Source: Zasmidium citrigriseum
Lineage: Eukaryota; Ascomycota; Dothideomycetes; Mycosphaerellales; Mycosphaerellaceae
Assembly (NCBI GenBank): GCA_002786025.1
Contig: NHNW01000064.1
Span: 1 to 64,000 of the forward strand
DNA: 64,000 nucleotides
Direction of reading: 5' to 3'
Shown piece by piece: positions 9,005 to 60,066 of the stretch. The stretch's first letter is position 1. Each line of letters starts with the position of its first letter. Below the pieces are notes generated by a model. That model was given only the letters and a program-made list of their open reading frames with translations, searched no databases and had not been told where the DNA came from. The position numbers and the translations under genes were made by a program.

Positions 9005-9066
9005 GACTAAGCCCTAGATTAAAACTAAGCTCTAGACTAAGACTAAGCCCTAGATTAAGACTAAGT
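9005..9066. repeat. 18-bp tandem array, three and a half copies
   Basis: Units resembling GACTAAGCCCTAGATTAA follow one another with period 18. Differences between units are transitions. The six-codon period suggests an old repeat in a coding sequence upstream of the LINE endonuclease frame. Confidence 0.7.
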
Positions 9067-12500: not shown

Positions 12501-12661
12501 TACTTAGGTATACGTATATATATAGTATATTCGTCGTAAGCTAACTAAGAGTTTACTAAAGGAGTAAAGGGAGATAGTAGAATAAGTCGAGGATAATAAG
12601 ATATATAATTAATAGGCTAAGTATTTTATATATAGTTAGGTAGTACTTACTTAAATCTAAT
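9541..12661 (+). mobile_element. RIP-killed non-LTR retrotransposon (LINE) ORF2: endonuclease plus reverse transcriptase
   Basis: One plus-strand frame (phase of 9541) reads as LINE ORF2 if its many TAG/TAA codons are taken as Gln or Trp. The endonuclease covers about 9,541-10,190, with LNAQGL-like, VET-Y, GDINV and DYYFT motifs of AP-endonucleases. The reverse transcriptase covers about 10,762-11,571: ARFRKGY (11,050-11,070) for the usual QAGFRKGRS, TFLDFYVAFNRVN (from about 11,134) for FLDFSKAFDRV, and LFYIDN (about 11,416-11,433) for LFYADD. A thumb-like segment follows (YLSFLINKD). Both domains share one frame 1.2 kb apart. The catalytic YADD is changed to YIDN and dozens of stops are present, so the copy is dead. 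The order of domains fits Tad1-like fungal LINEs; clade assignment is inference. Confidence 0.85.
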
Positions 12662-15600
12662 TAAGTCTAACCTAACCTAACTAAGGCTAAATAAGCTTAT
12701 AAACCCCTAGTCTAGAATAACTATAAACTAGTAAACCTCCTTATACTAAGTAAGAATTTAGTAATTATAACTTTAGGTTAGAGTAAGTAAGCGAGATATA
12801 GACTAGGTTAACCTAACTTAGGTATTATAAGCTAAACCTACCCTAATATACTCGAATAATAATACGAATTAGATTAAATTAATCTAAACCTAGCTAGACT
12901 ACTCTAGAGTATAGCTCTTATATAGGAGCTACTAGCTAACTTAAGTCTAGATCCTAGATAATATTAATAAGGTATAGGAGGGAGTAAAAGTAAAGGGCCT
13001 AGTATTATAATTAGCTAGACTAACGTAAGTATTAGATACTTAAAAGGAAGATACCTAAGTTACGCTTAGTATTCCTCCTCTCTATTCTCTTCTCCCTAAC
13101 GTCTAAACGATAAATAAGTAAGAGTCTAGAAAGACCTACTAATCCTATTAGCCTATTAGAGAATTCCCTCTAAAAACCCTACTAATAAGTATCGTTAATA
13201 GAACTCTAGGCTAAATAATATAGCGTAGAAAACTAACTCCCCTTCTCTTACTTTATAAGTACTATCTAATAAACCTACTATATATAATATAGTCTAGTAT
13301 ACCCTTCCTTAATAATTAACCTTATTAAACTCCTCCGTACCTTAAGGAGTAAAACCTATAGGCGCCTATATATTAGTAGTAGGTTTAGGTATAGATATCC
13401 TCTAAGTAATATACTATAGTCTAAAGGCGGTTTAGAAGTTAAAAGATAACTAGGCTACTCTTAAGGGTAGAAACTATAACGGATATTAGTATACTATAGA
13501 AGACCTCTATTACCTAATAGTATATATCCTATAGTAGACCTTCCTAGTAGTAGTAAATAGTTTACTATTACTCTATACTATAAAGCGTATTAGCTTATAC
13601 TATAGTCGTATCTTCGATAGACTATTATACTTCTTACTCTTAGGTATAGTAGTATTCTAGTTTATAGTAGTCCTATAGCTATATTCTATTCGTCGCGTAA
13701 ATCCTCTATAGTAAATAGAGTAACTATTAGATATTCTCTATCTACCTATAAACCCCTAACCCTAACCCTTTTAGTATTAGGAAAGGTATATAGTAGAAGA
13801 ATAAAGTAGAGACTAGTAGAATAGTAGTAGAGAGAGTAGTATTATTATAGTAGTAATTAGTAAGGTATAAAAGATAGATATAAGAGCGGCTTATTTAGTA
13901 GAATAGTATTAAAGAATACCTTTATATAAGAAGTAAACTATTTCTCTAACTAGAGGAATCTTTCCTTATAAATACTTTATAAATAAATATCTTTATAAAG
14001 GGTATAAGTATAGCTTTCTTACCTAGTACTAGCCTCTACGTTATACGCCTACTAAAGTATTTTATATATACGCTTAGCTTTAAAGGTAAAGGCTATAGTA
14101 TAGTAGGATTAAGATACCTATAACTCTTATAATAGATATAAGTAGGTCTAAGACTATTACTCTATCTATAAGAAGGAAAATCTATTAGCCTTAAGTATAT
14201 AGAAGTATATTTTATTATATAAATATAGTATAGTAAGAGTATAAGGTAAAGTAAGGAAATTCCTATTAGTTAGAGAGAAAGCTATAAAATCTAATTAGGC
14301 TATAGACTTCTTAACGTTAAGCTAACTCTAACTTAAAAGCCTATATAAGTATACCTTAAGGTAGTAGACTAGCTACTAGAGTCTTATCTTATATTAGTTA
14401 GTCTCCTAGCCTTAATAGTAATATCTTCTTTAATAATCTTATACTTAAGGATATACTATATAAAAGAAAGTAAAGGTAAAGTTAGTAGTAGTAAAAAAGG
14501 TAAAGGCGAAAGAGCTTAATATATTAAGAATAATAGCTAGGCGAGAGAGTAAATATAAAGATAGATAAGGAGTATATATTAGTAGTAGAGGTATATAGAG
14601 TATATTATATAGAATAGAGTCGTCTATAGGTTTAATAATACTATTACTAGCTCTATTCGATTAATTAGAACTTTTATAGTCGCTATAAGTACCTAGCTCT
14701 ATACTACTATTAAAGAGGCTAGTAAGAATATTATTAATATTAGTATTAGGATTAATACTTATAGCTCGAGTATAGTTCTAGTTAGTCTACTAAGTATCCT
14801 AAAAGGGATTAAGTATACTAATAAGTATATTAAGAGATAGGAGGTTATCTTTAGTATCGTCTATATCTTTAATATATATAGTATATAGATTATAACTAGC
14901 TTTAATAGCTTAGAAGATAGGATTAGTAGTAATACTAAGTTTAGTATACTATAAACGCTTATTAGCTAAGGTTTCTATATATTTAAGTATAGATAGAAAA
15001 TATAGTCTAGACTTAATAGAAGTAGGCTTTACTAAGTTAGCCTCTAGTAGAGTAAAAGTAATAATATACTCTCTAAGCGCTAGCTTAAAGTAATACTATA
15101 GAGCTAGGTTTATCTTTTTCTTCTTATATCTATATTTAGCCTAGTAGTTAGTAATAGCCTTATACTTCTTACTAGAAGTAAGCGCTATTCTCTAGTAACT
15201 AGAAGAAATAGAAGTTACTAACCTAGAGATAGAAGTAATAATATTTAATATCTATAGTATTAGTATAAATAAAGATATATAGATAGAGTAGTATTAGAGA
15301 AGTTTAAGACTAATTAGTTTAAAGATCGAGAGCTATTCTAGCTAATTAGATAGAAACTTAGGTTAAAGAGTAGAAGGACTAACTTAAAGAGATAGATTAC
15401 GACTTATAAACGCTCTTAGCTAATACGATATAGTTATATTATATATCTTTTAAGTTAATTATAGCTTATTAAGACTTATTAGTACTATATTAGGCTAATC
15501 CTAACCCTAAACTCTATTATTACTATTATATTTTAATAGTAGTAATTAGTATCTATTTAATATAACTTTAATAGATATAGATATATCTAATCCTAGACGA

Positions 15601-16202
15601 GATATTAATAGTTTAGATATATCTATTCTTATTTTATACTAGACTTAAAGTAATCTCTAGTAGCTTTTACTAGCCTATATAATATATAAGGCTAATATAA
15701 GACTTTCGCGCTTATACTACTTATACGACTCTATTAGTTTTACGCGAAATCTATACGTAATCTATAATACTACTAGTAAGATAAAATAAGAACCTATAAG
15801 TTAACCTAGTAGTATATAATAGAAATAGATATAGAAATAACCCTTAATATTATCTACTCTAGTAGTTAAGAAGAAGTCTAGTAGTAGTTAAATTAGCTTA
15901 GGCTTAAAGACGTAGAATAGGAGCTAGAGATCCTATACTCTTAGAAAGATAATATAGAAGTATCTATTTTAGATAGTCTATAAAATCTAAGTAGTAGTTA
16001 AATATAAGTAAAGGTAGTAAAGGAGCTATTAAAGTAGTTATTTAATAAGAACGAGGCTACTATATAGATTATAACGCTAATATAGAGGTATATCTAGCTC
16101 TATAAGATATAGAATACCTACTAGAATCTAGGTTTAAAAATATAGAAAGCTTTCCTAAATAGTATTAATAGTAATAGCCTTCTCTAGGTTAATATTATTA
16201 TT
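12662..16202. other. RIP-degraded DNA, nothing identified
   Basis: AT-rich, CpA/TpG-free sequence with no domain I can read. It holds a short CCCTAA-type run at 13,754-13,770 and several short A- and G-rich tracts (about 14,460-14,620). Confidence 0.5.
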
Positions 16203-17560
16203 AGTACCTCTACTAACGTAGTATAAAAAGGAAGCCTTAATATTATTAAGGAGGTATAGAGTCCTAACTAAATTAATAACCTACTAGTCTACTTATACCT
16301 AGCGCTTACTAACGTTAAAACCGCCTTAAAAAGACTACTCTATTAGATTATAGTAACTTATAAGAGAAGTATTATACTAGTAAAGGTAGCTAAGGTATAG
16401 GATACTACTTATAGACGCTAACTAGATCTAGATAAAAGAGTAGAAAAGAATAGGATAGACTCTAAGATACTATATCTAATAGCCTAGGATATTACTATAA
16501 GTAGTATAGTTAGATAAGATTTTTAGTATAGCTACTATATATATAAACGTTTCTTCCCTAAGTTCTATAAAGAATATTTAGAGTTAAAGAGTCTCTAAGC
16601 CTTATAGACGCTAATTATAAGCTACTAGAAAAGACGTAAACTAAAAGTTAAGGTAGGTTTAAAGACTACTTAAAGCCGTCTAGTATCTAGTAGGTAAGAA
16701 TATAATAATAAGTCTAGTATAGATTTACTAATAGAAGTAGGAAGTTTAGAACTATTATACTATAGCCTATTCTTCTTAGGTTATCTATAGCGCCTATTAA
16801 TAATACTAGATAATATCTAGGAGGGTATTTACCTCTATAATAAATATAGAGAGGCTATAGGTAGAATTATTAATATACTAGAGAGTATAGAGTTACTTAA
16901 GCTTATAGAGATATTAGAGGATATTAGTAAATACGCTCTAGATAATATTAGGATAATAATTACTACTAACTAGTAGTTTCTATATCTTAATATCTATATT
17001 CCTTTCTAGCTATATACTATATTAAAGTAAGTAGAAGCTAGAAGTTAATTTCTAAGCTAATTAGCTATAAAATCCTACTTATACTAAGTAGAAGTACTAG
17101 TATAATAGAGTAGGTATTTAGTTACTCTATACTAGTAGTTAGTAGTATACTTTCTTTAGTATATAGTAAGGAAATAGAGTCTACTTTATAATATTCTTAT
17201 TAAAGTATAAGAAAAGTATAAGAAAGGACTTTTTACTATTATACTATAGAGAATAGGCTAAATAAAGGCGCTAGACTACTTCTAGCTAAAAGGTATTATA
17301 CTCTTAGTATAAGAAAGCTAGCTAAACTACTTTAAGCCTAAAAGTATTATACTTTTAGTAGAGGAAAGTACGCTAAACTAAACTTAGCTATAAAGTATTA
17401 TACTTATTATAATTTAACTAGCGTAATAGCGAACTTCTATATCGAATTTCTCTATAATATAATATATAATAGATAAAGTATTTATATAGTATAACTCGCT
17501 AAGTAATAATAAGTTAATATATATCTATTTTATAGCTATACGCCTATAGGTAAGTATTAA
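16203..17560 (+). pseudogene. Unclassified RIP-killed ORF
   Basis: A plus-strand frame (codon phase of 16,287) is long and protein-like, with stops almost only TAG. It is rich in Leu, Ile, Lys and Tyr, with helical-looking charged stretches. I recognise no domain. Part of its openness is an artefact, because TGA cannot occur in this block and RIP inflates Ile, Leu and Tyr codons. It may belong to another transposon or to the 3' region of the same composite element. Confidence 0.35.
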
Positions 17561-18034
17561 CCTAAAGTCTAAAGGCGCTATATAGAATAGTAATAACTAG
17601 GTACTAAAAGCCCTTTATATTCTATAACTCTAGGACCTATTCTATATTATTCCTTAAGGCTTAGAAAGTTAACCTAGAAAGTAGGAAGTTAAATAGATAC
17701 TATTTAGCTAAAATATAGTACTCTTACTTTCTACTTTAAACTTACCTATCTAACTTATAGCTTTTATTCCTTACCCTTCCTTAATTATTCTAAGATAGTT
17801 AGAGATATTTTCTAAACTAAAACTTTATATAGATTTTAGGAAAAGTATTAATAGGCCTAGAATAATCTATTTTTAAGAGGTTTTTACCCTAAAACTACTA
17901 TAACTCTTAATTCTTAATTTATTTTAAAGGAACAAAAATTCTACTAGCTAAGATATTTTTATCTAGGATACTTTTAAGTATAGTAGGTATAGGAAAATTA
18001 TAACTAATACTAAAATAATTTTCTATAGAGTTAA

Positions 18035-25154: not shown

Positions 25155-25543
25155 GAGCTCTCGAAGCAGTCGGTGGCATGGTTTATGCAGCAACGGCTAC
25201 ATCGTGGAGACTGGAGGTAGAATGGCCGATGTTTGACACATCCGGAGTTCAATGCGAGGCTTACGAATACACGCCCCCATAAGGCAGAATGTTACATCAT
25301 CAGCCCTGCATCACAGCTCACTCTCGAAGATAGAAAGTATTCCAAAGCAGCGACCAATGCCTCCTTTCGTACCTGGATCTGCCTATCGCATCCAGTAACT
25401 GTCCAGTTTGATCTCTACGTCGTGAGGGAAATGTATAGCAGCGACTCAATGCTGTGTCTTCGAGGCTTCTCCCGCCAACAACAGGAGATAGAAATAGTCA
25501 ATCATCTACAGCAATCAAAATCATCTAAGTGTTGAAGGTCACC
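25155..25543. other. Intergenic region
   Basis: Spacer between the GMC oxidoreductase relic and the methyltransferase gene. No gene or RNA was recognised. Confidence 0.5.
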
Positions 25544-26200
25544 ATGGCTGTTCCAGCGGAAGCTCTCTATACCGATATTGGAAGCCGATACCAGGATGCC
25601 TTCATCATTCCACCACAACTCCGTTCGCTGAACTCTCTCCTCGGGCTGCTTCCACCAAAATCCCACGTCCTCGATATTGGGTGTGGAACCGGACGACCAG
25701 TCGGCGAAACTCTCACCAAAGCCGGCCACACATTCACCGGCGTCGACCTCACTCCAGCCATGGCAGAGACAGCTCGCAAGCAACTTCCAAACAGCAACAT
25801 CATCGTAGCCGATGGGCGGAGCTGGACGCCATCAAAGGATATGTTGCCATTCGACTGTGTGATCTCATACTACGCCTTCCTTATCGACGTTACCATCGCC
25901 GAAACGAAAGCATTCTTCCCACGAGCGTATGAATGGCTGAGACCTGGAGGCATCTTCGTTTTCGGCACGGGTTCATTTGAAGCGGACAGCGAGAAATGCA
26001 AGTGGCTGGGTCGGGATATCGTGCTCTCGAGCATGAGTCCCAAGGAGCTACGAGAAGAGATTGTCGAAGCAGGCTTCGTGATCGAGAAGGAAGAGGCGGG
26101 CACCTTCGCTCCAGAGAAGGCTATCGGGATTGGGCTTTGTAAGGAAGAGGATGTCTGGGAAGAGGGCCATTTGATTCTGATCTGCCGAAAACCCGAGTAG
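25544..26200 (+). CDS. SAM-dependent class I methyltransferase
   Basis: A single exon encodes 218 residues. The ATG at 25,544 has a good context (CACCATGG); the frame is open upstream only to a TTG. SAM-binding motif I is VLDIGCGTGRPVGETL (about residues 44-59), followed by GVDLTPAM (motif II region), IIVADGRSW (motif III) and WLRPGGIFVFGTGSFE (post-motif). The fold matches Methyltransf_25/11 small-molecule methyltransferases; substrate unknown. It converges on the GST-like gene, with 20 bp between stop codons. It lies 12 kb from the peptide-precursor locus, so participation there is speculative. Confidence 0.85.
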   Translation: MAVPAEALYTDIGSRYQDAFIIPPQLRSLNSLLGLLPPKSHVLDIGCGTGRPVGETLTKAGHTFTGVDLTPAMAETARKQLPNSNIIVADGRSWTPSKDMLPFDCVISYYAFLIDVTIAETKAFFPRAYEWLRPGGIFVFGTGSFEADSEKCKWLGRDIVLSSMSPKELREEIVEAGFVIEKEEAGTFAPEKAIGIGLCKEEDVWEEGHLILICRKPE

Positions 26201-27215: not shown

Positions 27216-30200
27216 TTACTGCTTAGCAGCGGGTGCTCCAATAGTGAATTCCACGCATCCATTGGTGCTCGAATTGGCAATGAAACCTCCCTCGTAGACA
27301 TTGCCGCTGCCACCTGCAATCGAACTCACGGTCAGCCTTGAATCTCGAGATAGCATCAATTGAGTGGCAGGAACTTACAGCCATCCGATATGAAATTGAA
27401 CAGCGAATAGCATATGCTGCCACTGACAGGCAGTGCCGTCTCCTGGGCGCAAGTTGATTGATCATCGGCCCATCCGAGAGCGGCGGTTACCTCTGGATTA
27501 CTAGAGTAACCCAAGAATACGCTGCTTGTCTGACTGAGCTGCAGCGTAAAGCCTGCGTTGCAGAGGGCAGTCAGTGCTGAGGAAGCGCTGGCGACGGGGA
27601 AAGAGGCGTAGCCAGCCGGATTGGTGCTGTAGCAGTACGGCTTCCGTGGTCCACTGTCGTTGAAGGTCGGGTATGGCGGCTTTTTGGTTGTCGTTGGCGA
27701 GGGCGAGGTTGATGGCGATGGCGGGGGCGAGGGCGAAGTGCTGGTCACCATGGTCGTCGCTGTCTGGGCATCGATGGAGTCCTCGGAGGACATCGCTGCG
27801 GCGGCTTGGGAGGCGCGGTATGCATCCCCTGTGGCGCCGCTGTCGAAAGCGTCGAGAATGCCGCTGGGGAGGACGTACTGACCAGAGCTGATGGTCGTCG
27901 TCGACGTAGTTGGTGTAACGCTGCAGCCGGTGGTCGTTTGGCAGGTGGTTGAGCATGTCTGCGTAGCCGAGGCTGTCATGCAGGTTACGTCGCAAGATGG
28001 AGCCATGGTGACTCCATCCCCGTTGCTGCCGCATTCGTCGTCCGGATTGTCGTCAGGCTGAGAGAACGTTAGTCTAAAAAGGCTGTGTTCAGAGGCTTTC
28101 CACTCACCGCATCGTTGCTCCCTCCTTGATCTGTCCCATACGTAGTGCAAGACGGTCCAATACACTCTCCGAATAGACAATCCAGCCCGCCACAGGTCAC
28201 CTCGGAGCAGTTCGGGCCAATGCAAATCCCATCTGTGTCTGTACCGCCCGGACAATCTCCCCCAATACACCCAATTGAAAAGCAGGAGAGACCTTTGCAG
28301 TGTCCGCTTCCCGAGTCACAGTCTGAGCCAGCGCATCCGTGGGTCATGCAGCCCGCTCCCTGGCATACGCCATTGACGCAATTGGGGCCAACACACCCGC
28401 GAGGCCGGCAGTCTGATCCACGATTGCACATTCCATTGACACAGCCACTGCCAGTACATCCAAAGACTGCGCATTGATCGGAGACGCACTCGCCACCATC
28501 GCATCCCGGTCCGGTACATGTTCCTTGGCCGCCGGTGATTACTGGGAAGACGCCTGAGCTGGTGCTGGAGCTCGTTGGCGATCCGCTTCCGGAGCGAGCA
28601 AGGGTAGACGTCGAGCCGCCAGTCACAGTTGTGATGGTCATACCATTGGAATTCGTCGTCGTGATCGTTGACCCGCTGACGACCGTAACACTGGGAGAGC
28701 CTCCAGGAGATAGAGTTGAGGTTGAGCCTCCCGTGACAGTGGTAACTGTCATACCGTTCGAATTGGTTGTAGTAATCGTGGAGCCGCTAATCACGGTTAG
28801 GCTGGGAGAGCCTCCAGGCGACTGCGTAGACGTTGTGCCGACTACGGTGGTTACGGTCATACCGTTCGCATTCGTCGTCGTTTCTGTGGTGCTGCCAACG
28901 ACTTCCGTGGTACCGCCCACGACGGTGGTGACGGTCATCCCTTGAGCGTTCGTTGTCGTCTCTGTCGTTCCTCCGACCTGAAATTTGATTAGGAAACTCA
29001 CAACCTCATCTTGTTGCATTGTTGCTTACTACGGTCGTTCGGCTGCCTCCTGATCCAGCGCCAACTGTTGAAGTGGATCCTCCAGTGACCGTGGTGACGG
29101 TCATTCCGTTTGAATTCGTTGTCGTGATCGTTGAGCCGCTGACGACCGTGACGCTTGCCGAACCTCCGCCAGTGCTGGTAGCCGCCGGACAGCTGCTGCT
29201 TCCACTTGGACATCCATTGCCGCCGCAGCCAGCACATCCACCGACAGATGGTCCTGAGTAAGGCGCAAAGAACGATGGACACCAAGAAGGCGCAGGACCG
29301 CATGTCTGGGCAGCTGCGCCGCTGCTCGCAGGCGGAGGAATGACTCCCGGTCCTTGAGCTGATCCGTCATTGCCATTGTATGCAGCAACACAGAATTCAT
29401 AGGTTGTTGTTCCAGGATACAAGAAGTAATCGTCGAGGCAGGTTTGGGAGGTGTTTCCCAGAGGTGTGTAGTCTCCGCCAGTGGCGTTGCGTACGAAAAC
29501 TTGGTAGACGCCGGCCGCTTGGCTCCCTGTCCAAGAAAGGCTGAGCACATAGGTGAGCAAAATCTCATGGTTGTGGCGTATGTAGTACTCACTGAACGCT
29601 TGTTCCATCGTTGGAGACAGCTTGGAGGTTTGAAGGTACAGGAGGCGTCCCCATTCCAGGAATAACATTGTTCGCAATGAATGGCAGACCTTGTCCGTTG
29701 CTGTTCCAGGTGACCGGAGCCACGAGATAGCTCTTGCCTGTCAACAAACCACCTAAAGACCAATGTCAGTCTGAGGGTGATGCTCATAATGTCGATATGC
29801 TTACCAATCTTTGCTGGAGAGCTCTTGAAAGCAGCACCGGTGATGAAGTTACAATCATCTGGAGTCGAATCCCAATAGATGATGTTGTATTCGACAATGT
29901 TGTCAGTATTTGGTCCAGTCGGAGGATCCCAGGTTACTTCGAAACCATCGCCCGTCGGAGTTACAACGATGTTCTGTGGCGGCGGTGCGAGCTGAGGCTG
30001 TGATGTTGCAGTTTGCGCATCTGTCCACGGTCCAGTCTGATCGCCACAAGCTGCTTGAACTCGGACAGAATACGACCAGCCGGGCAGTGACCATTGGCAG
30101 TCCCATCGATTCACCGAAGAACTGCCAGGTGAGAACAGACCTCCGCCGCCATTGACATGAACGTCGACGTTGTAGCTGTAAGCCCCGTACACAGCGTCCC

Positions 30201-33948: not shown

Positions 33949-34568
33949 TTCGTCGTTCCAGAGTTGAATGTCTGCTGGGAATGGTTGAGCGAAGGTGCGC
34001 TGGTAAGTCGAGTGGGGAGTCTGTACGGCTGGATGACTTGGCGGCGGTCCCTCTCGATGGGTCCATGGGGCGGTCTGGCCGTCGAGGCAAAGTGCGCATC
34101 AGGAAAGCCAACGACTTGTACGGCTTCTTTGTAAATGTCACTACCCAAGCTCGTCCACGGCGGGATACGCGCGAAGGAAGAAAGCAAATACTTTTGGTCA
34201 TTGCTGAAGGGTTTGTTCGAGAGCCTTGTCCAAATCCGGATCGTGTCGCGACGAATCGAGAGCTTCAGTCGCTCACATGTTCTGCCAGGCCATGCATTAG
34301 TGCAACATGTTACAATGGCGTCCAACAAGGATTATAGTGGCCTTTGGCGTCGCTCGCAGGGCCTTGAAGGAATCACAAGTCCATTCGACTATTGAAGTCT
34401 CGTCCAGAAATATGAAGTCTGGTTGAAAACAGAGTAAGGACGGAATGGGACCGTGTTGGGTTGTCTGCTTCAATCAAGTCACTCGAGCGAGTGCAACTAC
34501 TTATACATATGACGGGTACGCCATCATGGTGACCGTCAGCTCCCTGCTGTGGACTGCAATTGGCAATC
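33949..34568. other. Divergent intergenic region
   Basis: It lies between the F-box gene and the secreted protease gene. Small overlapping open frames exist on both strands, but none has codon use or motifs that support a gene. Confidence 0.5.
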
Positions 34569-35786
34569 ATGTTGATCCAAGCCAGCATTCTGTGTTTCCT
34601 TTTGGCGACTGTTGGCAACGCCCAGACCATCGATCAGCTCTTCACCCTTGACCCATCATGCAACATCGGGACCATGAACACTATCCTCAACGACGCAAGG
34701 ACCTTAATGACTTCGGCTCAGAATGCCATTAATGATCTCATGAGCTCGAAGACATTCGTCACCCCGTCGACACGTCGCAACGTGCGGAATGCGGCGAACA
34801 GTTTCGGTACAACGTTTTACAAGTACACGGACAGGAACGGTCTGAACTCCGCCGATCAAGCGACTTTGACCACCGTCAGAAGTACGTACACGTCTTGTGT
34901 CTTCGCTCTCAACGAGCGTTTCGCTGAATTTTCGAACAAAGACAACATAGGGATGATTCAGACTCTTCTGACCGGCGGCACTGCGAATCAACAGCAACTT
35001 ACCCCCCAGAATTCCTACCTCGCCTGCGCTAACGGAGCATACGTGAGAACGTCTAAGGCGACCGACATTAACTCCAATCTCCCGGCTGGTACTACGACCA
35101 GTAGAGCATGTGAGTGGAGTATTCGCTCGGAACGTTTCAGTCGCCAATAATGCTTTTGACAGATGGTATGAGCTTCGTGCTCTACGCTCCGGCCGGGCCA
35201 AGAGAGGACGGCTTCAACAAAGCGGCTGTGCGACCGAGTCTCAATCAGTACGAGATTTGTACGAACGTTGGTCAGAATCAAAACTCGATTGTCGAGGCCG
35301 AGACTGTCCCGTTCGAACGGAACCCTACAAATGAGCCGTTCCGCCAAGTTGTGCTCTGTGATCGACTCTTCAATGGGGCTTTAGACCAGTTCCAAGTCGC
35401 CTGGCAGACGACGATCAACCCCAATCCGGGCCCTGGTGGCCGCCAACAAAAGCGCAACTTCAAATTCACGGCGGGGACTTTGATCCATGAGATGTTCCAC
35501 GTCCTTGACAGCGAGGGTTGTATGTTGAGACTTTTTCATGCCGTTGGATAGCTCACTAACAGCAAACACGGCAGATCTCGACCGGAAGTTTAAGGATACT
35601 AGCGATAACACCATCTTCGCACCGTACGGCCCGCTCAATATCTTCAGCATTGCGAACAAGGATAGCACCCAGGCAGTGGCTTCCGGCGGAGCGGTGATCA
35701 CAACAGATTTGCCGGATGCGTACCGAATGTTCTGTGAAGAAAGCCAGTTCTCGACCACGTGGCTTGTCGATCAATATGGTGGTTGA
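34569..35786 (+). CDS. Secreted HExxH metallopeptidase-like protein (M35/aspzincin-like)
   Basis: Three exons (34569-35109, 35163-35516, 35575-35786) give 368 residues in phase. The ATG at 34,569 opens a signal peptide (MLIQASILCFLLATVGNAQT). The N-terminal half is helical and lacks motifs. A second intron lies just after the zinc-binding segment TLIHEMFHVLD (HEMFH at residues 289-293). The final exon has DLDRKFKD and APYGPLNIFSIANK. The layout resembles fungal secreted lysine-specific or deuterolysin-like metallopeptidases, where HExxH is followed by a third Asp ligand. I cannot assign that ligand with certainty. Activity on host or substrate proteins is inferred. Confidence 0.75.
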
Positions 35787-36658: not shown

Positions 36659-37288
36659 TCAATCCGGGTACAAATCCACCTGCGAAACAGCCAGAAGCTC
36701 CGACGACTCCGGAACCGTAGCAACGAACTCCAGCACCGACTTCATGCAATGCATGACATGCTTCTCCTCCGCATACCGGCCCTCCATCACAGTCCCTCTT
36801 TGACTCGCTCGAGCCTGTTTCCAGATCAGATACAAACAATGCGAATGATGCCAGTCCATGGTCGTGACAATCCGATCAGGAGATCTGTGAGGATCTCCAG
36901 CGAGGAGAGAGACTTGTTCAGCTGAGAGTTCGGCTGTGGCATTTGGATAGGTGTAATAGGTCCAGGTATGATTTTGCCCGATTGAAAGATCTTGCAGCAT
37001 GTCCATCAAGTCGTCGTCTCGGCAGTGTGGAGGGAGCCAGGCCATGGCGAGGACGTCGAATTTGCAGCCGCGAGATGCTGCTTCTTCTGGTGTGCTGCCG
37101 CAGCTGCAGGTTCTGCTTGATGTTCGAAGATCGATTGAGTACACCTGGATGTGTTGAAAGATGCTAAGTAGACCGAGCATGGCCAGCACAATAAGGCAGA
37201 ACTGGCCGATTCGACTCGTCCATGATAGTTCCCGGTCTTTGTCGTCTTTGGTTGACGGGAGCCATCGAGGCAAAGCTTTTGTCGGCAT
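36659..37288 (-). CDS. Single-pass membrane protein with paired HxxHC motifs (UstYa-like, RiPP cluster candidate)
   Basis: A single exon of 209 residues from ATG 37,288 (upstream codons are non-ATG). A short cytosolic basic segment precedes one membrane helix (about 27-45, IGQFCLIVLAMLGLLSIF). The lumenal part has CSCGSTPEEAASRGCKFDVL and AWLPPHC, then HHSHC (147-151) and HVMHC (177-181). Two HxxHC motifs about 30 residues apart also occur in the UstYa/DUF3328 oxidases that cyclise fungal RiPP peptides, and in the neighbour at 39.1-40.1 kb. The CGxTxxEAxxxGCxFD signature belongs to a separate, widespread and poorly characterised fungal family. An oxidative role on the nearby repeat peptide is inference. 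Confidence 0.75.
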   Translation of the reverse strand: MPTKALPRWLPSTKDDKDRELSWTSRIGQFCLIVLAMLGLLSIFQHIQVYSIDLRTSSRTCSCGSTPEEAASRGCKFDVLAMAWLPPHCRDDDLMDMLQDLSIGQNHTWTYYTYPNATAELSAEQVSLLAGDPHRSPDRIVTTMDWHHSHCLYLIWKQARASQRGTVMEGRYAEEKHVMHCMKSVLEFVATVPESSELLAVSQVDLYPD

Positions 37289-38042: not shown

Positions 38043-38506
38043 CTACTCTTCATCGCTTGGAGGAAGTTCAACATTCACAAGTGGGCGGTAGATCGGTGGC
38101 ACAGGCATAGCATCCCGCTTCTCAGCACTCGCTTCTTCCTCTGACGGAGGCAACGCAACGTTCACCAATGGTCGATAGATCGGTGGAACAGCCTCACGCT
38201 TCTCACTGTCTCTCTTCTCATCGGATGGCGGCAATGCCACGTTGACGAGCGGACGGTAAACCGGCGGCACAGGTGCAGCCTCTCGCTTCTCGACATCACG
38301 CTTCTCGTCGGATGGAGGAAGAGCAACGTTGACGAGTGGGCGGTAGATTGGGGGAACTGCCACGCGGGCTTCGACGTTTCCTGAGATAAGCTCTTCAGTC
38401 TTCTTCACGCTCGGGATAGTTTCGATGAGTGATGAGTCTTACCGACGGGAGCGGCAGCAGCCAGGAGGCCGCATGCTGTGATTGTGAGGAGCGTGCTGAA
38501 GTACAT
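38043..38506 (-). CDS. Kex2-processed repeat peptide precursor (candidate dikaritin-type RiPP precursor)
   Basis: Two exons (38506-38443, 38380-38043) with a 62-nt GT-AG intron encode 133 residues. Signal peptide is about 1-19 (MYFSTLLTITACGLLAAAA). Then come four near-identical repeats centred on PP(I/V)YRPLVNV(A/E)LPPS, at about 31-45, 60-74, 87-101 and 116-130. They are separated by acidic spacers with dibasic Kex2 sites: KR at 48-49, 53-54, 78-79, 82-83 and 109-110. This is the architecture of UstA-type precursors, where Kex2 releases identical cores that UstYa enzymes cyclise through Tyr. Each core has one Tyr. A plain secreted Kex2 peptide (KEP), not cyclised, is the alternative. Flanking genes (two HxxHC proteins) favour the RiPP reading. 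Confidence 0.85.
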
Positions 38507-39111
38507 CTTGATGTTCTCTGGTCTTGATTGTTGAGGAAAGAATTGACACTGGATCGGATGTCGTTTGACGAAACTTCGAGAAGTTTTTCGCAGGGCACAC
38601 GACAGCTTTTGAACTTTCAATCAAGACTCTCTACCAACAGGATAACTTCTTCACCTTCTCCAATAGGAAATGACCTTCCAATGCACAATTCGTATCAACG
38701 TGGAATCATTGCTTCAGACCGGTTGAGGCCAATCAAGATTGGGATAAACCCGACGTCGTAGTCGTTTGGCATTATGCACCATGCCCGCTGCAAGGCCTCC
38801 ATCTTTTGGAATCTGTGGCGCATGTCGATCACCATGCGGATTGCCAAGCGAAGCAGTAGTTTCGAGACGTGAGCACTAGCTTTTGATGAGCTGTCACCGT
38901 AGCGTGCTTCAGCTGAATGCATTATTCTCCGAGAGCTACTTCGTATCTCGACACACAATGAGGAAGGTAGCATCTTCAGCTTCATCGAAAGCTTCATGCG
39001 GCCTAACGTTTCACTTTCCTCCAACGTTGCGCTGGCCATAATCGGACTTTCTGCTACAGTCTCGCTTTCTCTCTCACGGCCTTGAGAGCATGACATGCGA
39101 CCGCATCGACC
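38507..39111. promoter_or_regulatory. Divergent intergenic region between precursor and UstYa gene
   Basis: The precursor and the UstYa-family gene are transcribed away from each other from this 605-bp spacer, so a shared bidirectional promoter is plausible. No specific operator is recognised. A minus-strand frame (about 38,695-39,039) is open for about 115 codons but has no motif, so I do not call it. Confidence 0.4.
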
Positions 39112-40073
39112 ATGAAGCTGGATGCGAAGTACACGCCCATAGACGAGGAGGCTGATGAAGATGCAGTCCTTCGACGAAGCCATGAGAGCTCGATCAATCT
39201 CTCGAGACGAACATTATTCGCTCTTGTGGCGTCGAACATCATCTCCGCTGTCTGCGTTTTTGCCTTGCTGCTTTACATCTTCAAGCCCGAGCTCTTCTCG
39301 TTGAACGCAGACCTAAAGAGAACTTCATACTACAGTACACTTCTCCAACCAACAGAGTCATCAATGCTCATTACTGACCACAACTCCCAGGCCCAATCCT
39401 CAACCTCCTCAACATCCCCCTCGAAACTGTCACGCACGACAACACCCTCTTCCACGAGTCGATCTATCGTCAACCCCCAAGTCCCGAAGTCGACGAAGCA
39501 TGGTTCAAACTCGCCACACCCTATCAATACCTCGCGACAACCGAAGACATCCTCGCTGTGGGTAAAGATCCCGTATACTCGGTTCGACATCCAGCAAAAC
39601 CAGACCAACATGTAACGATGCTGGCTGTCGATCATCAGCTGCATTGCTTGAACGAACTCCGGCAATACGTCTTTGCAGAATACTACAACCACACAACCCC
39701 AACCCCCCTCCAACTCGACCACACGCAACACTGCATCGAGCTCCTCCGGCAAACCCTAACCTGCAACGCCAACCTGGACTTGATAACCTACAACTGGCAA
39801 GACATCGGGCCCGATCCCGTGCCAGACTTCAAGATAAACATGAAATGCCGCAACTTCAATAAAATACGGGAGTTTCAGCAGAGGGGCGTGGAGGAGAGCG
39901 GCTTCTTCAGCCCGGTTGGTGGTAATGAGGGGTGGCCGTGGAAGAGACAGGGTGGAGAGAGGACCGTTAAGGCGCCGAGGAAGTGGTGGGAGTATTTGCT
40001 TGAGGGTGGGTATGTGAGTCAGGAGGAGTTTGAGAGGGGAGTGTTGGATGAGGGGCATTGGGTTGTTGATTAA
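39112..40073 (+). CDS. UstYa family (DUF3328) oxidase-like membrane protein
   Basis: Two exons (39112-39334, 39391-40073) with a 56-nt intron give 301 residues. A cytosolic acidic N-terminus is followed by one membrane helix (about 36-58, LFALVASNIISAVCVFALLL). The lumenal domain has PPSPEVDEAWFKL and the two diagnostic motifs HQLHC (156-160) and HTQHC (185-189). The tail has KCRNFNKIREFQQRG. These are hallmarks of DUF3328 proteins. UstYa and UstYb of ustiloxin, and homologues in phomopsin, asperipin and victorin clusters, carry out oxidative cyclisation of Kex2-released peptides. Start divergent from the repeat precursor 605 bp away, which is the likely substrate. Confidence 0.92.
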
Positions 40074-40143: not shown

Positions 40144-41737
40144 CTACAAGCTAACATTCGCACAACTGAACGCCGGCGTCACACTCGCCGAGTAGTCCGC
40201 CATGATGGCCTTCACAGCCGCATACAGTCCCGGTCCCAGCAAGAACAGTCCCACAACCATGACGATAACATGAACAATCGTCATCACACTCCTCCCAACA
40301 TTGCCAAACAGCTGTCCCTGGTAAAGCTGATAGTACGCGACGGCAAAGAAAATGAAGCCGAAGAACGAGTCGAACGCAGCCCCCAACAGCGACAAGAAAT
40401 CGCCCATGGAAGGAATCACCTCTGCGAAGATGAAAGCCAGGAACCAGATACCGGCCATAACAGCCGCCCAAGCACCCCACCCAATGATCGTATGGCTATG
40501 CGCATGACGACTCGAGCCCATAATGCGGGAGTAAACGAACTTGGCCGAGACGTTGGCGTAGATGACACCAATAACCAGCGTCGGGACGATGACGAAGGCG
40601 AAGGAGGCTTTCTTGTACGAGACCACGCCGAGGGATCCGAAAGCCGGTGCGGTGGAGTACTGGCCCAGGTAGCGGAATCCGATCGCGGGAGGGACGATGA
40701 AGAGGAAGGCGGAGACTCCGGTCAGGACAGCCAGGGCTTTGGGGAAGTCTTGGGGCTTCTCCATTTCCGAGATGAAGGTTGGGAAGAGGATTTGGGGGAC
40801 CCAGAGGAATGTAATCTAATGGAAGATAAGTAGGTGTCTCACATGATGAGCTACTGCCCTTGGATTTACGTACGTTGAGCACGGCATTCATGCATGCCAC
40901 CCATGTGGTTCCTGGGAGTGGGAAAGCGTAGGTCTTGACTTCACCGAGCTCGGGGTAGTTACCGTTGTAGCCGTAGTAGGGAGCCTTCTCGATGCCGGCG
41001 AAGACCATGAAGAGGAGGATGGCGAGGCCCATGGCGGCGGCTGGAAACAAGATCAGCAGCTGGATCATCATGAGGTGATTGGACTTACCAGAGAACATGG
41101 ACATGAAAGACACATTCTTCAGCGTCCGTGGCAACGACATGACAATCCCCATCACCATCGCAATAACCGAAAACACAACCGTGCAAGCCGAATGATCACT
41201 CAACGTATTGAGCACCTTCGCACCAGTCAAGACATGAAAGCCAATCAACATGATATTATTCGCCAGCAACATGAACGCAGTGAAATGATACGCAATCCTG
41301 CTCTTGCCGAAAGCGTAGTATCCAAAGTCGCAGATGTCTTTGATTTGCGGGTACTTCATGATGAACTTGTGCATGGTCATGGAGGTGATCCAGAAGAGGA
41401 TGCCGGCGCCGAGCATGGTGAGGATTCCGGGGACCCAGCCGAGGACGGAGAGGGACCAGGTTTGGGCCATGACGGCCAGGCAGACTTGGTCGCCGCAGAG
41501 GAGCCAGGCGGCTTTTTGCCAGGTCATGGTGCGGAGTTTGATGTCATGTTGGTGGTCTGAAGACAATGTCAGTGATGATTGAAGTTTAGTGAGGATGTGT
41601 CTCTTACCTTCATGGACCAGAGCAGTGATGGTATCAATCGAACTGGCGCCATCGTAGGCCGGGACATCAGCATCGAGAGGCACCTCAGTGAGCACTGCGG
41701 AGACTTTCTTCTCTTCGTCGTACTGGAGAGTCGCCAT
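40144..41737 (-). CDS. Amino acid transporter (Aa_trans/AAAP family)
   Basis: Four exons (41737-41608, 41556-41089, 41040-40874, 40815-40144) join in phase to 478 residues. The ATG at 41,737 follows upstream non-ATG codons. A hydrophilic N-terminus of about 60 residues leads into about eleven membrane segments, with TWQKAAWLLCGDQVCLAVM at the start of the first and GFHVLTGAKVLNTLSDHSAC and PPAIGFRYLGQYSTAPAFGSLG later. The pattern matches fungal amino-acid/auxin permease-type transporters. It converges tail to tail with the UstYa gene (70 bp between stops). It may export or import amino acids or the peptide product, but housekeeping uptake is equally possible. Confidence 0.85.
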
Positions 41738-42443
41738 GGCTGCAGTTGGGATATTGATCAGGCTGAATGAAAGTTGAGCCACAGGTGGAGCTTCTCCTTC
41801 AGATTGAGATCGGCAGCGAGCAAGGCTTTATGTGAATGTCTGCCACGCCTCTGGGCGAAAAGCTTCTCGAACAAGATCCATTTGCTGTGCATGGCGTGCT
41901 TGCATGGGCTTATCATCAAAAGCGCGCTACCGAGTTCCAGAGCCCGGACTCGCCGCTGCCTTGCAGGAAGGCTGAGCGTTCATTGGTCCTTCCTGGCCTG
42001 ACATCTGCATCGTTCATGCACCCGGCGACCACGTGTGAGATAAGGTCGAAGCCAGAAATGTTTCAGGCCCGCTCGAGATGCAGAAGAAGAAGATGGGCCA
42101 GTTGCAGGAGAGCGAGGCGTTCGGTGGATGCTTGTCGAGCTTGTCCAGAGCTTGACTTTGGCTTTCCGCCTGCATTAGCGGCGGTGTGTTTTGGGTCAGA
42201 TCACGCGAGCAGCCAGCCTCTGCAAACTTAACCCATCCATTCTCACCTCATCACTCCACTCTTGCATGCAGAAAGGCCAGCCGCAAGTGGTAGGCGAAGA
42301 ACATACCGGAGAGAAGTCCGCCCAAGCCAGGGAGAGATCTCAGCTCGTCTGAAGTAACCGAGGATAGACTTCTCGCCACCTTTGCTCTTTTCAACCCACC
42401 AAACAAGTCAGCATCCTCCAGCAGCACAAGGTACATCACCACC
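41738..42443. other. Divergent intergenic region
   Basis: It lies between the amino-acid transporter and the SRPBCC gene. No gene was recognised. Confidence 0.5.
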
Positions 42444-43130
42444 ATGGCATCAAACACATCCTCCACCTGGCCGCCATCCTCCGGCCTCTGCTCACCGACC
42501 GTCCCACACAAAGACCGAGTCTTCCAGACCAGCGCCTCCATCAAAATCAACGCCCCCGCATCCCAAGTCTTCGAAGCCGTCCTCAAGGTCTCAGACTACC
42601 AGCACTGGAATTCCTTCTGCCCGTCAGTCCGCATCGTCAAGCAACCTCTCAGTCGACCAGATCTCCCACCAGAAGACCAGCCCGATGACGTCAACGACTT
42701 TTCCCGCATGCGAGTCGGCACCATCATGCACTTCTTCGTGATCATGGATGCTTCCAAGCCGAGTAAGACAACGCAGACAGAGCTAGAAGTCACGGATATC
42801 TCGACTCCGGAGAATCCGAGCGACTATATCGATGCTGCGACGAGGGAGAAGGAGCCGAGCTACACCTCGGACTTGTCAGAGCTGTATCGGGTGTCGTGGA
42901 AGCAGCATGGAGGCTTCGCTTCACGAGGACTGAAGACAGAGCGATTTCATGAGATCTTGATCACTGGCCAGAATGAGTGCGAGCTGAGAACCTGGGAGGT
43001 GTACGGTGGCGTGCTCGCTTACACGGTCAAGTGGCTCTACCAGAAGACCTTGGACGAGAAGTTCCGTCTTTGGGGCGAGGATTTGAAGAAGTATTGTGAG
43101 GAGAAGCAGCAGTCATCATCATCGCAATAA
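42444..43130 (+). CDS. SRPBCC/START-like (polyketide cyclase-type) protein
   Basis: A single exon of 228 residues. The ATG at 42,444 has context CACCATGG. Residues about 30-60 read SASIKINAPASQVFEAVLKVSDYQHWNSF, the classic first strand and helix of a START/SRPBCC ligand-binding fold. The later part has ELRTWEVYGGVLAYTVKWLY and a C-terminal helix ending in a Glu/Gln/Ser tail. An insert of about 60 residues separates the fold halves. The family binds hydrophobic ligands in a pocket. No signal peptide, so cytosolic. Ligand unknown; association with the peptide cluster is positional only. Confidence 0.75.
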   Translation: MASNTSSTWPPSSGLCSPTVPHKDRVFQTSASIKINAPASQVFEAVLKVSDYQHWNSFCPSVRIVKQPLSRPDLPPEDQPDDVNDFSRMRVGTIMHFFVIMDASKPSKTTQTELEVTDISTPENPSDYIDAATREKEPSYTSDLSELYRVSWKQHGGFASRGLKTERFHEILITGQNECELRTWEVYGGVLAYTVKWLYQKTLDEKFRLWGEDLKKYCEEKQQSSSSQ

Positions 43131-43460
43131 TAGCTTGCAGAGCGCATTGATCACTTCAACGCCTGTTGTGTGAATCTTGAGAAGATGGCTGCTCATTGGC
43201 CGGTTACACAAAGAGCACTGCCTCTTTGGGAAAGCCGTTGAATGCACCTTCCGCATCCGTCGATGACTCAAGTGAAGCCTGAGGCTTAGACGTCACTCAG
43301 GATGAGTCGAACATTGTGCGAGCCATTGGAAGGTAATGAAACTCGCATTCAAAAGAAACCATTGACCGACGAATCCAAGATCCCCGCCACCAATAAATAC
43401 CATCCTCTCGTACGACCGAACAAGACCAATCTCGAATCTCACCTTCCACTCCTCTCCAAC
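43131..43460. other. Intergenic region
   Basis: Spacer upstream of the REI1-like gene. The reading frame of that gene stays open upstream to an ATG at 43,302, so part of this could be coding or 5' UTR. Confidence 0.45.
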
Positions 43461-44576
43461 ATGGTCGGCGGAACATTCCTATGCAGCACTTGCTCTGCAA
43501 GTTTCGAAAGCAACTCATTACGACGAGAACACATGCGAGAACCATGGCATGTCTTCAACATGCAACGAAAAGTCGCCCAGCTGCCGCCGATATCACTCAC
43601 TTCGTACGAAAGTCTTGTTGGAGCACCGGATCTTGAGAAACAAGTCGAACGGCCGACGAAGTCACCGCAATCTCCTCAAAGGCAACCTCCAAAGGTTATG
43701 AACGAGGAGCTGGAATGTGCCTCTCGCAGAAGTGAAGGTGACTCCAGCGACAGCGACGACGATCTCCTCGTGGAGCCGGAGAGATGCCTTTTCTGCTTGT
43801 CCATCTCCGAGACCGTGGCTGACTGTCTCGAGCACATGCAACACTCACATGGCTTCCACATTCCACGACTGGAAAGATTGCAAACGGACCTCGGCACTTT
43901 CCTCGCATATCTGAATCTGGTCATCGCCCGATTCCATTCATGCTTGTACTGCGGCCATGAAAAGCATTCAGCCGATGCTGTTCGCTCGCATATGTTGAGC
44001 AAAGGGCATTGCATGTTGGATCTCTCCGAAGACTCCGACTTTCTCGACTTCTGGACTGTCGATGAGGAGTTGAGAGAGGGTGCAGACCTTGAAACGATGC
44101 AAAAGCTCTCAAACAATGAAATCCGGCTGCAATCCGGCTCAGTAGCATCAAGCCGCCACGATGGACGTCCAAGCACCAAACCAGCCAGACCTCGAAAACC
44201 ACAAATCGACAGCACAGCTCTGGTCGCAACCTCCCCTATTCCAACCACAGAATCCGAAAAGTCGACGGCAACGCCGAGCTCCTCATCCAAATCGAAGTCG
44301 ACCGCCCTCACCCTCTCCCGCCGCGACCAAATGGGTCTCACCGGCCTCACTTCCCACCAACACCACACCCTCGACCTCACGCACAAAAAACTCATTGCCC
44401 GCGAGCAGCGCTTTCGAAACGACGCCCGCTGGACGGTCGAGAAGTTTGGGAATACCACCAAGATGAAGCATTTCAAGGTCAGTCGGAGTGGGATTCATAG
44501 TGCTATCCAGGTGTGCTGAGCTGATTGTTGGGTTTTGGTGGTGTAGCCGGATGTGCCAGGAAGGAAGAATGGATGA
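43461..44576 (+). CDS. REI1-like C2H2 zinc-finger protein (60S ribosome biogenesis)
   Basis: Two exons (43461-44477, 44547-44576) give 348 residues. I chose the ATG at 43,461 because the first finger follows at once, as in the family; an in-frame ATG at 43,302 would add 53 residues. Fingers: CSTCSASFESNSLRREHMRE with WHVFNMQRKVAQLPPIS directly after; then CLFCLSISETVADCLEHMQ; then CLYCGHEKHSADAVRSHMLS. This order and the WH-x-N-x-xRKVAxLPPIS segment are diagnostic of Rei1/ZNF622, the cytoplasmic factor that releases Arx1 from pre-60S particles. The C-terminus HFK|PDVPGRKNG is made by the 69-nt last intron. It is somewhat shorter than yeast Rei1. Confidence 0.88.
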
Positions 44577-58251: not shown

Positions 58252-60066
58252 TTACTTCACGCCCTTCTCTTCCACCACTACGGCTGCCGAATGCTCGACA
58301 TCCATTTCGTTACTCTTCTTCTCCTCCTCTTTCCTCCGCTTCTTCTCCGCAGCCTTAGCCCTCAAACTCTGCCCCCTCGCCATCATCCAAAACACCGCCC
58401 CCAACAACCCCACATAAAGCAACGCAATAAACGTAAACGCCCACCCAATCCCCATAGCCTGAGTCATAGGGATAATCGCCGCCGCACCACCTGCACTCAT
58501 CAGACATCGAACAAAATTCACAGCCGCGGTGGCGGTCGCCGGTTGGTCTTTATGCAGGTCGATGAGGAGCGTGTTGGTGATGTTGAAGGATGTGCTGACG
58601 CCGAAACCGATGAGGAAGAGAGCGATTTCGGGACCGGCGAGGGAGACGCCGTAGTGCAGTGTCCAGCCGAAGAGGATGAATGCCATCGTGCCGATGAGGT
58701 GGCCCGGGAAGACGATTTCGAAGCGGACTCGTTCGATGGGGAAGTTGGTGAGGTCTTGTTGTCGACCTTTCTTGATGTCGAATCCGAGGCGTTTGGCATG
58801 ACGGCGGAAATTCCAATCTGCGGCGTGGCCCATCGTCAGAGTGGAAGCGAGAGAACCCATGCCCATGGCGATGAAGCAGAGACCGATTTCGAGGGTGTTG
58901 AGGTGGTAGATCTCTGCGTAGAGAGTCGGGACGGAGGATGTGACGACCATCATGCCGGTGAAGAAGAAGCCGTTGTAGAGCAAGACGGCGCAGCTTTCGG
59001 GGTCGGCGAGGATTCGTAAGGTACGGAGTGGATTTGGAAATGAGGCTCGCTTGCTCCGGCGGTTGAGGTGTGTGGAGTCGTCTGCTGCTGGAGGGCCGTG
59101 TTGTTCTGCCCATTTCTTTTGGGTCATGTGCCCGATGATGGAGCGGTTGATGCCTTTTGCTGGGATTGAGCCGTTGCCGACGACGTTCCGACAGGTTTCT
59201 GGGAATAGGAGGCCGAAGATGACGAGGAGGACGCCGGCGAAGATGACCAAGAACCAGAATGTCCATCTCCAGCCGAGATATTGTGCGAAGACTCCACCGA
59301 TTGTTGGACCGAATGCTGGACCGAAGAGAAGACCTGCTGTTGCGTAGCCCATGTATTTGCCACGCTCTGCTGAAGTAGCGATGTCTGCGACGACGGCATT
59401 CGAAAGAGCGATGGCAGCACTGCATCCAAATGCCTGCACCATTCGAAGGATGAGCAGAGCGGCATAGTTGTGCTGCAATGCAAGGCCAACATTGGCGCAA
59501 GTGAAGATAACGAAGCAAACGATATACGACAGCCTTCGTCCATTCTGATCCGACATTCCAGCGATGAGGGCGGGTGCAATGGCCTGGGCGATCATGTACG
59601 TTGTCAAAGACAAGTTGATCAACGTCGGTGTAACGCCATAGTCGTCGGCGATGGTGTCCAGTGCTGGATAGAAAGTCGTTGCTCCGAAGGGTGAGATGAG
59701 CGAGGAGACCGAGACGGCGAGGACGATGAAGATGTTGGCTCGTGGTGAGAAGATGCTGTACGGCGGGCCCGAGATTGTTCGTGTAAGAGTTGGTCGAGCA
59801 TCTTCTGTCGTTGAATGAATCGATGTGGTGGATGAGGGACTTGGCGAAGGAGTCGAAAGTCGTTTCGATGCATCGATGGTCAGATCTTTCCAATCTTCCG
59901 GTGAGAACGATGGAGTGAAGACTTCTTTCTCCTCGTCGGCCGTCATCGTGTCGTCGGTCTCTGCATTCTTTCCTGTTCTTCTGCTTGGCTCTCCCTCCTC
60001 TCTTATATCCTCGTCTACAACATCCTCCCTCGATCTCGACACCATCTTCTCACCGTCCTCAATCAT
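58252..60066 (-). CDS. MFS multidrug transporter, DHA1 family
   Basis: A single exon of 604 residues from ATG 60,066. A long acidic, Ser-rich N-terminus (about 110 residues) precedes twelve membrane helices. Helix 1 is IFIVLAVSVSSLISPFGATTFYPAL. The loop after helix 2 has AGMSDQNGRRLSYI (DHA1 motif A form). RMVQAFGCSAAIALSNAVVADI is the motif B region, and GPAFGPTIGG is the antiporter motif C. The closest type is fungal DHA1 drug:H+ antiporters (Qdr/Flr-like). A basic and acidic C-terminal tail follows. Substrate unknown. Resistance or metabolite export is inferred from family. Confidence 0.9.
   Translation of the reverse strand: MIEDGEKMVSRSREDVVDEDIREEGEPSRRTGKNAETDDTMTADEEKEVFTPSFSPEDWKDLTIDASKRLSTPSPSPSSTTSIHSTTEDARPTLTRTISGPPYSIFSPRANIFIVLAVSVSSLISPFGATTFYPALDTIADDYGVTPTLINLSLTTYMIAQAIAPALIAGMSDQNGRRLSYIVCFVIFTCANVGLALQHNYAALLILRMVQAFGCSAAIALSNAVVADIATSAERGKYMGYATAGLLFGPAFGPTIGGVFAQYLGWRWTFWFLVIFAGVLLVIFGLLFPETCRNVVGNGSIPAKGINRSIIGHMTQKKWAEQHGPPAADDSTHLNRRSKRASFPNPLRTLRILADPESCAVLLYNGFFFTGMMVVTSSVPTLYAEIYHLNTLEIGLCFIAMGMGSLASTLTMGHAADWNFRRHAKRLGFDIKKGRQQDLTNFPIERVRFEIVFPGHLIGTMAFILFGWTLHYGVSLAGPEIALFLIGFGVSTSFNITNTLLIDLHKDQPATATAAVNFVRCLMSAGGAAAIIPMTQAMGIGWAFTFIALLYVGLLGAVFWMMARGQSLRAKAAEKKRRKEEEKKSNEMDVEHSAAVVVEEKGVK

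Follow-up and report, generated by a model that had tools for sequence, protein, structure and literature searches.

A tyrosine-containing repeat precursor with a new core beside a UstYa gene in Zasmidium citrigriseum: a probable dikaritin-type peptide pathway

The region analysed here (the window) is a 64,000-nucleotide stretch of a Zasmidium citrigriseum contig, in which a short gene on the minus strand (38043..38506) encodes a precursor of 133 residues with a predicted signal peptide and four repeat copies. From its sequence the gene is drawn as two exons (38506-38443 and 38380-38043, the second including the stop codon) separated by a predicted intron of 62 nt (38442-38381, GTAAGA...CAG). 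The GTAAGA donor is compatible with four in-frame acceptors, giving introns of 50, 62, 74 or 86 nt, and a weaker donor, GTCGGT, gives two further splice models; left unspliced, the frame reaches a stop soon past the signal peptide. Since the choice of splice model alters a short propeptide only, the repeats are the same under every model. The N terminus is hydrophobic, its maximum mean Kyte-Doolittle value being 2.22 (LLTITACGLL), and on this basis it is read as a signal peptide.

Downstream lie the four copies of PP(I/V)YRPLVNV(A/E)LPPS, all on the minus strand and spaced by 87, 81 and 87 bp: copy 1 (PPIYRPLVNVALPPS, 38310..38354), copy 2 (PPVYRPLVNVALPPS, 38223..38267), copy 3 (PPIYRPLVNVALPPS again, 38142..38186) and copy 4 (PPIYRPLVNVELPPS, 38055..38099). 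A preliminary description of this DNA had read a signal peptide and four such copies in a 133-residue product, and both the frame and the repeats bear this out. It had also placed five KR sites around the copies. Five are present, starting at residues 48, 53, 77, 82 and 109, but the N-terminal side of copy 1 carries EAR instead of KR, followed by the lead VA-V. Copies 1 and 4 have KR on one side only, copy 4 running on to the end of the protein (SDEE and then the stop codon). A dibasic site is present in every interval between the four copies: the linkers DEKRDVEKR and DEKRDSEKR hold two KR each, and EEEASAEKR, which follows copy 3, holds the second KR only. Cleavage by Kex2 is predicted to release pieces of 22-25 residues. 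Every core has one tyrosine, as had been described, and this residue is conserved in all four copies; the core has neither Trp nor Cys.

Comparison of the copies at the nucleotide level showed 9-15 differences over 45 positions across the six pairs, most of them synonymous. All 15 third codon positions vary among the four copies but only 2 of the 15 residues do, demonstrating that the repeat is old and has been kept by selection on the peptide. Residue variation this low occurred in 0 of 5000 simulations with six random mutations per copy, which gave on average 10.1 variable residues, and 18.5 variable nucleotides compared with the 21 observed. A looser repeat scan returned 0 hits per 1,000,000 bases of dinucleotide-random sequence; on real sequence false hits do occur, for example at window positions 28478-28942 and 58553-60049. 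In conclusion, the four-copy repeat reflects neither chance nor recent duplication, and has been under selection at the level of the peptide.

The precursor gene stands head-to-head with a UstYa gene on the plus strand (39112..40073; 56-nt intron at 39335-39390), the two start codons being 605 bp apart. UstYa, or DUF3328, is presented in the accessible text of a lichen survey as the class-defining enzyme of dikaritin-type RiPPs (PMC12048977). PF11807 matches the second-exon ORF with an E-value of 1.5e-42, and the predicted protein of 301 residues, a putative oxidative cyclase, has a transmembrane segment (identified by eye) and the motifs HQLHC and HTQHC. The preliminary description had allowed that relatives of this precursor might prove never to lie near UstYa genes; the precursor gene itself adjoins one. 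A second-exon alignment of 26 rows, made up of the window protein and all 25 hits, shows no variation in the His and Cys residues of either HxxHC motif. Nine residues in all are invariant in this alignment, and the same nine are recovered with 19 hits and the window protein. The intergenic stretch between the divergent start codons (38507..39111, from the coordinates) is a putative shared promoter.

On the other side of the precursor, a minus-strand gene (36662..37288) encodes a Cys-rich membrane protein of 209 residues with the motifs HHSHC and HVMHC and a CSCG...GC...C region. The protein falls below every Pfam cut-off, scoring 14.4 bits against PF11807 where the cut-off is 25, and three of the seven members of its family match PF11807 weakly (best E 0.011). 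In a profile comparison, the seven-member family (four paralogues, two outside hits and the window protein) was aligned by hhalign with 20 UstYa sequences (19 of the 25 homologue hits and the window protein); the 72 columns aligned around the motifs gave an E of 2.1e-6 and a probability of 89%. In the predicted models of the UstYa protein (second exon only) and of the flanking protein alike, a strand runs into the helix that bears the first motif and another helix carries the second, each HxxHC motif lying at or near a helix start (mean pLDDT 71 for one model and 80 for the other). Foldseek comparison of the two models with the PDB gave nothing at E <= 0.001, so that the fold is not tied to a known enzyme; solved-structure searches with the alignments returned 0 chains for UstYa and two chains, not credible at E 0.23, for the flanking protein, and NCBIfam yielded nothing useful. 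Judged on motifs, profiles and models, the flanking protein is probably a remote UstYa relative; against this, the second motif is short of one His in both of its closest relatives, P0002 (HLMNC) and P0003 (RDMHC, from Zasmidium). The nearest named relative of the flanking protein, 59% identical, is from Zasmidium cellare, and a further one, P0004, is from Acrodontium. Within the genome, three paralogues lie less than 2.5 kb from a UstYa match (C65:76.9k, C68:262.5k and C61:1445k) and the other five matches are farther away. One paralogue (L006/L033, G000:C65:338336) carries a long C-terminal tail of MHP repeats, rich in His and Met and possibly metal-binding.

A Pfam scan of the window covered 28 distinct ORFs out of the 124 of at least 110 residues. 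No tyrosinase was found among these 28, and the sole methyltransferase seen (25529-26197) is about 12 kb off, in a region (23.6-26.2 kb) that also holds a GMC oxidoreductase; the ORFs scanned do not provide the tyrosinase and methyltransferase of an older, five-gene cluster definition. Functional dikaritin clusters missing some of the five genes were reported later, according to the portion of the lichen survey at hand (PMC12048977). Beyond the UstYa gene, Pfam matches identified an amino-acid transporter ORF (40499-41827, minus strand), a polyketide-cyclase/START-like ORF barely above the cut-off (42294-43127) and a C2H2 zinc-finger ORF (43290-44516). A secreted protein on the plus strand (34533-35548) has HEMFH in a later exon and looks metallopeptidase-like by eye; its two scanned ORFs gave no Pfam hit. 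Positions 1-18000 form a block with a GC content of 26-34%, a TpA/ApT ratio of 1.7-2.1 and no ORF of at least 110 residues, which together look like the signature of repeats mutated by RIP.

The AT-rich, TpA-rich character of this block would suit a decaying or silent cluster, whose genes are intact in sequence and unexpressed, as would the missing N-side KR of copy 1, the linker without its first KR and the incomplete second HxxHC motif of P0002 and P0003. However, all three genes (precursor, UstYa and flanking protein) have open reading frames, the repeats are strongly constrained and both motifs are intact in the flanking protein of the window itself, and we regard a silent cluster as very improbable.

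Our reading of the locus as a working UstYa-type pathway draws also on the rest of the genome (44.4 Mb in 148 contigs), in which at least 43 PF11807 exon matches were chained into 32 genes. Twenty loci of 10 kb were fetched, covering 28 of the other 31 UstYa genes and leaving out C101, C138 and C73. A strict scan, requiring three copies and a dibasic site in each interval, identified precursors in 3 of the 20 loci (L013, L014 and L029) and in the window, all four head-to-head with UstYa. Looser scans added L019, L020, L025 and L026, whose precursors include some single-Arg or non-dibasic junctions, bringing the loci with a repeat precursor to 7 of 20; the signal-peptide-like starts of these seven were judged by eye. 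In the eight precursor/UstYa pairs, window included, 387-1225 bp separate the precursor from the closest UstYa match, and seven of the pairs are head-to-head, L019 being tail-to-tail (binomial P 0.0004 at one in four per orientation, a post hoc null set after the first cases). L029 has another UstYa match, in tandem, that lies nearly as close as the first (1308 vs 1225 bp). As the scan covered UstYa loci, the pairs demonstrate adjacency and orientation near UstYa and not enrichment. Enrichment was measured in 1461 strains by Umemura 2020, in whose available text the number of DUF3328 genes is highest directly beside KEP genes (PMC7329392).

The cores of the other precursors are diverse. L013 (6027-7033; G000:C110:177526-178532), which shares a contig with the window at a distance of ~139 kb, has 16 copies of the type W(N/S)SP(D/N)AY(T/Q)I(P/N)K and its own UstYa gene head-to-head. 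UstYa-linked precursors with the cores DDVYH..GGII, GDDSA(G/A)STGVVNVM, DGSTEFDPDAFLK and DDTN(I/V)FCSK are found in L014 (5765-6268), L019 (3895-4257), L020 (6394-6738) and L029 (3395-4221), respectively. L025 (3005-3256), which has both a UstYa gene and a flanking-protein paralogue as neighbours, carries four HDE(T/I)YY(Y/F)LK repeats with three adjacent aromatic residues, reminiscent of the Tyr-rich core of asperipin-2a. L026 (6948-7604), adjoining a UstYa pair, has C(T/V)GAQC(F/Y/L)(K/E)xW repeats whose leads are partly X-Ala/X-Pro by eye and whose two Cys and Trp are reminiscent of alpha-pheromones. Outside the UstYa loci, a large precursor in L034 (2982-3950, G000:C126), with units of EPVLPIAAKVG(V/I)KAGAMLGKKLFFDEEKR, resembles the window precursor mainly in its KRDVEKRE linker; its contig has none of the UstYa matches listed. 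The repeat protein of L016 (~1409-2629, minus strand), head-to-head with UstYa by its coordinates, has many DLSALTDLLSTGGLKARQ-type units with a single Arg between them and was for that reason excluded from the count of seven in eight. Antisense and frame-shadow hits, a hit in L030 and the MHP repeats of L033 were likewise set aside.

No homologue of the precursor was found at E <= 10 among 6692 word-sharing candidates drawn from 5.8 billion proteins, using a query of 142 residues that included nine intron-encoded residues and left the repeats intact, although Z. cellare has a relative of the flanking protein. A search of the organism's own genome with the 133-residue protein retrieved the gene itself, as two exon matches, and L004 at E 0.53, through a shared linker. 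The core, which the preliminary description did not recognise, is also absent from the text of the papers searched; supplements and figures lie outside such a text search, and an earlier supplementary listing is possible. Taken as a whole, the analysis supports identifying the gene as the precursor of a dikaritin-type RiPP, linked to UstYa and with a core that is new. The same class had been proposed as likely from the DNA alone, and it is strengthened by the head-to-head PF11807 gene, the probable remote UstYa relative, the seven other UstYa-linked precursors and the conserved Tyr. On this evidence we consider it likely, with good confidence, that the genes form a compact RiPP pathway of the UstYa (dikaritin) type, in which UstYa would modify the peptide. 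Weighing against it are the lack of a tyrosinase among the 28 ORFs scanned, the distance to the methyltransferase, the failure to find a precursor homologue, the missing N-side KR of copy 1, the His lost from the second motif in relatives of the flanking protein, and the fact that UstYa enzymes have roles outside RiPP pathways as well, according to the accessible part of the lichen survey (PMC12048977).

The residues that precede the cores add a feature of another kind. Between KR and PP(I/V)Y, copies 2, 3 and 4 have the leads EA-AP-V, EA-V and DA-MP-V, in which all five in-phase dipeptides end in Ala or Pro, and whose lengths are exactly one dipeptide apart, each leaving VPP(I/V)Y. DPP-IV-type enzymes are expected to halt at X-Pro-Pro. 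Copies 2-4 thus carry leads of the Ste13 type known from alpha-pheromone precursors; DVE and DSE, the three-residue pieces past the two other KR sites, break the ladder. The genome has one Pfam match to P_proprotein (kexin-type) and two to DPPIV_N. We compared the leads of the window, L013, L014 and L029 precursors, L019, L020, L025 and L026 being left out. L013 has 16 copies, and each of the 15 preceded by a basic site carries one to four X-Ala/X-Pro dipeptides, always in phase. The ladder of L014 is partial: all eight leads after KK have one or three residues, and four of the five longer ones start with X-Ala or X-Pro. L029 has no ladder in the three copies that follow basic sites within its repeats.

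Leads of this kind raise the alternative of a linear hormone or pheromone-like peptide, released unmodified by Kex2, Kex1 and Ste13 and sensed by a receptor, with the adjoining UstYa acting elsewhere. Alpha-pheromone cores are of the WCxxxGQPCW type, which the window core does not fit. No exact match to this pattern occurs in the genome, so that there is no other alpha-pheromone of that pattern by which to exclude this alternative, and the in-phase X-Ala/X-Pro leads after KR before copies 2-4 favour it. The portion of Le Marquer 2019 at hand (PMC6339444) describes the signature (X-Ala/X-Pro after KR) as one that Ste13 takes off alpha-pheromones, says that the precursors of cyclic tetrapeptides and epichloecyclins lack it, and proposes it as a hormone mark. 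Against a linear hormone stand the UstYa genes beside the window precursor and seven others, seven of the eight pairs being head-to-head, as well as a core with neither Trp nor Cys, and we judge this alternative improbable, though less so than a silent cluster.

Pro- and Val-rich, repetitive and secreted, with Kex2 sites, the precursor could also be compared with Rep1 repellent, a surface or structural repeat peptide that coats hyphae unmodified. The UstYa linkage, the number of copies (four only), the single conserved Tyr and the acidic tails all argue against such a function, and Rep1 is said, in the text of Le Marquer 2019 at hand, to be without the Ste13 signature that the window precursor has (PMC6339444); a Rep1-type peptide is scarcely to be expected here.

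A UstYa-modified peptide and Ste13-type leads need not exclude one another. Of 76 KEPs with homology to putative pheromones of basidiomycetes, 17 have a DUF3328 neighbour, going by the available text of Umemura 2020 (PMC7329392), which means that the combination is not wholly unprecedented. We propose, tentatively and as a possibility somewhat short of even, that the head-to-head pairs in this genome form a modular family in which some precursors join Kex2/Kex1/Ste13 trimming to UstYa oxidation, giving cyclised, precisely trimmed peptide signals. If this were true, UstYa RiPPs and peptide pheromones would lie at opposite extremes of a single continuum, and Ste13 leads would cease to mark linear hormones alone. 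Pheromone-type leads by UstYa genes clash with the published linear-hormone reading, and the link between toxin and signal is thereby made testable.

For the window, the dikaritin-type pathway that we favour could run as follows. The precursor would enter the ER, kexin would cut past the KR sites and a carboxypeptidase would strip the KR tails, while a Ste13-like dipeptidyl aminopeptidase would trim X-Ala and X-Pro dipeptides in register. Copies 2-4 would then converge on VPP(I/V)YRPLVNV(A/E)LPPS with a short acidic tail, as would copy 1 if it were cut after Arg27. UstYa, anchored in the membrane and probably driven by the divergent promoter that the two genes would share, would oxidise the one Tyr of each core; the simplest outcome would be a cross-link between this Tyr and a residue close by. 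The remote UstYa relative could be a partner of UstYa or a second tailoring enzyme. Expression of the precursor, its splicing in vivo, the order of cleavage, the trimming and ring formation are steps that we infer. The precursor probably yields a small family of secreted, ring-shaped peptides that had so far escaped notice.

What the analysis adds is a new core for a probable UstYa RiPP, the masses of which can be predicted exactly, in a genome where eight or more pairs of this kind occur. For the trimmed linear peptides the predicted [M+2H]2+ values are 981.538 (copy 2), 1239.150 (copy 3), 1082.070 (copy 4) and, should copy 1 be released, 988.546; for untrimmed peptides they are 1165.623, 1339.190 and 1289.149, and a form with one ring would be 1.008 lower at 2+. 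Should the head-to-head rule (seven of eight here) hold elsewhere, it would offer a simple route from UstYa genes to their precursors; no repeated precursor was identified in the two conserved clans of the lichen survey, in the part of its text at hand (PMC12048977).

With the known dikaritins (ustiloxin, phomopsin, asperipin-2a and victorin) the locus has in common a signal peptide, Kex2-separated repeats and an adjoining UstYa gene, here one with two HxxHC motifs. A core Tyr is likewise common to the window precursor and to ustiloxin, asperipin-2a and phomopsin, and asperipin-2a also has a single DUF3328 gene, both according to the accessible text of PMC7329392. That text gives Tyr in the repeats of 65.6% of DUF3328-linked KEPs compared with 38.2% of others (Umemura 2020). 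Unlike the dikaritins, the window precursor has a new core, predicted pieces of 22-25 residues and X-Ala/X-Pro leads, with no tyrosinase among the ORFs scanned.

The core also differs from that of the epichloecyclins. With these peptides (gigA) the window has in common a repeat precursor and a DUF3328 enzyme in the pathway (PMC12048977 and PMC6339444, as far as the text at hand goes), and differs in the Ste13 signature, which the available text of the latter says epichloecyclin precursors lack. KEPs, the subject of Umemura 2020 and Le Marquer 2019 (PMC6339444), are defined in the accessible portion of the former (PMC7329392) as secreted proteins with three or more repeats, each of eight residues or longer, between dibasic sites; the window precursor likewise has a signal peptide, judged by hydrophobicity, together with the repeats and their dibasic separation. 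It has a DUF3328 neighbour, like 22% of KEPs, and is without a homologue found, like 2560 stand-alone KEPs, in the former of these texts. With ascomycete alpha-pheromone precursors it has in common KR followed by EA or DA and X-Ala/X-Pro dipeptides, and unlike them it adjoins UstYa and has a core without their Trp and Cys (PMC6339444, in the portion at hand). Taken with the paired remote UstYa relative, these pheromone-type leads make it possible that the locus is a variant of the UstYa-linked repeat precursors.
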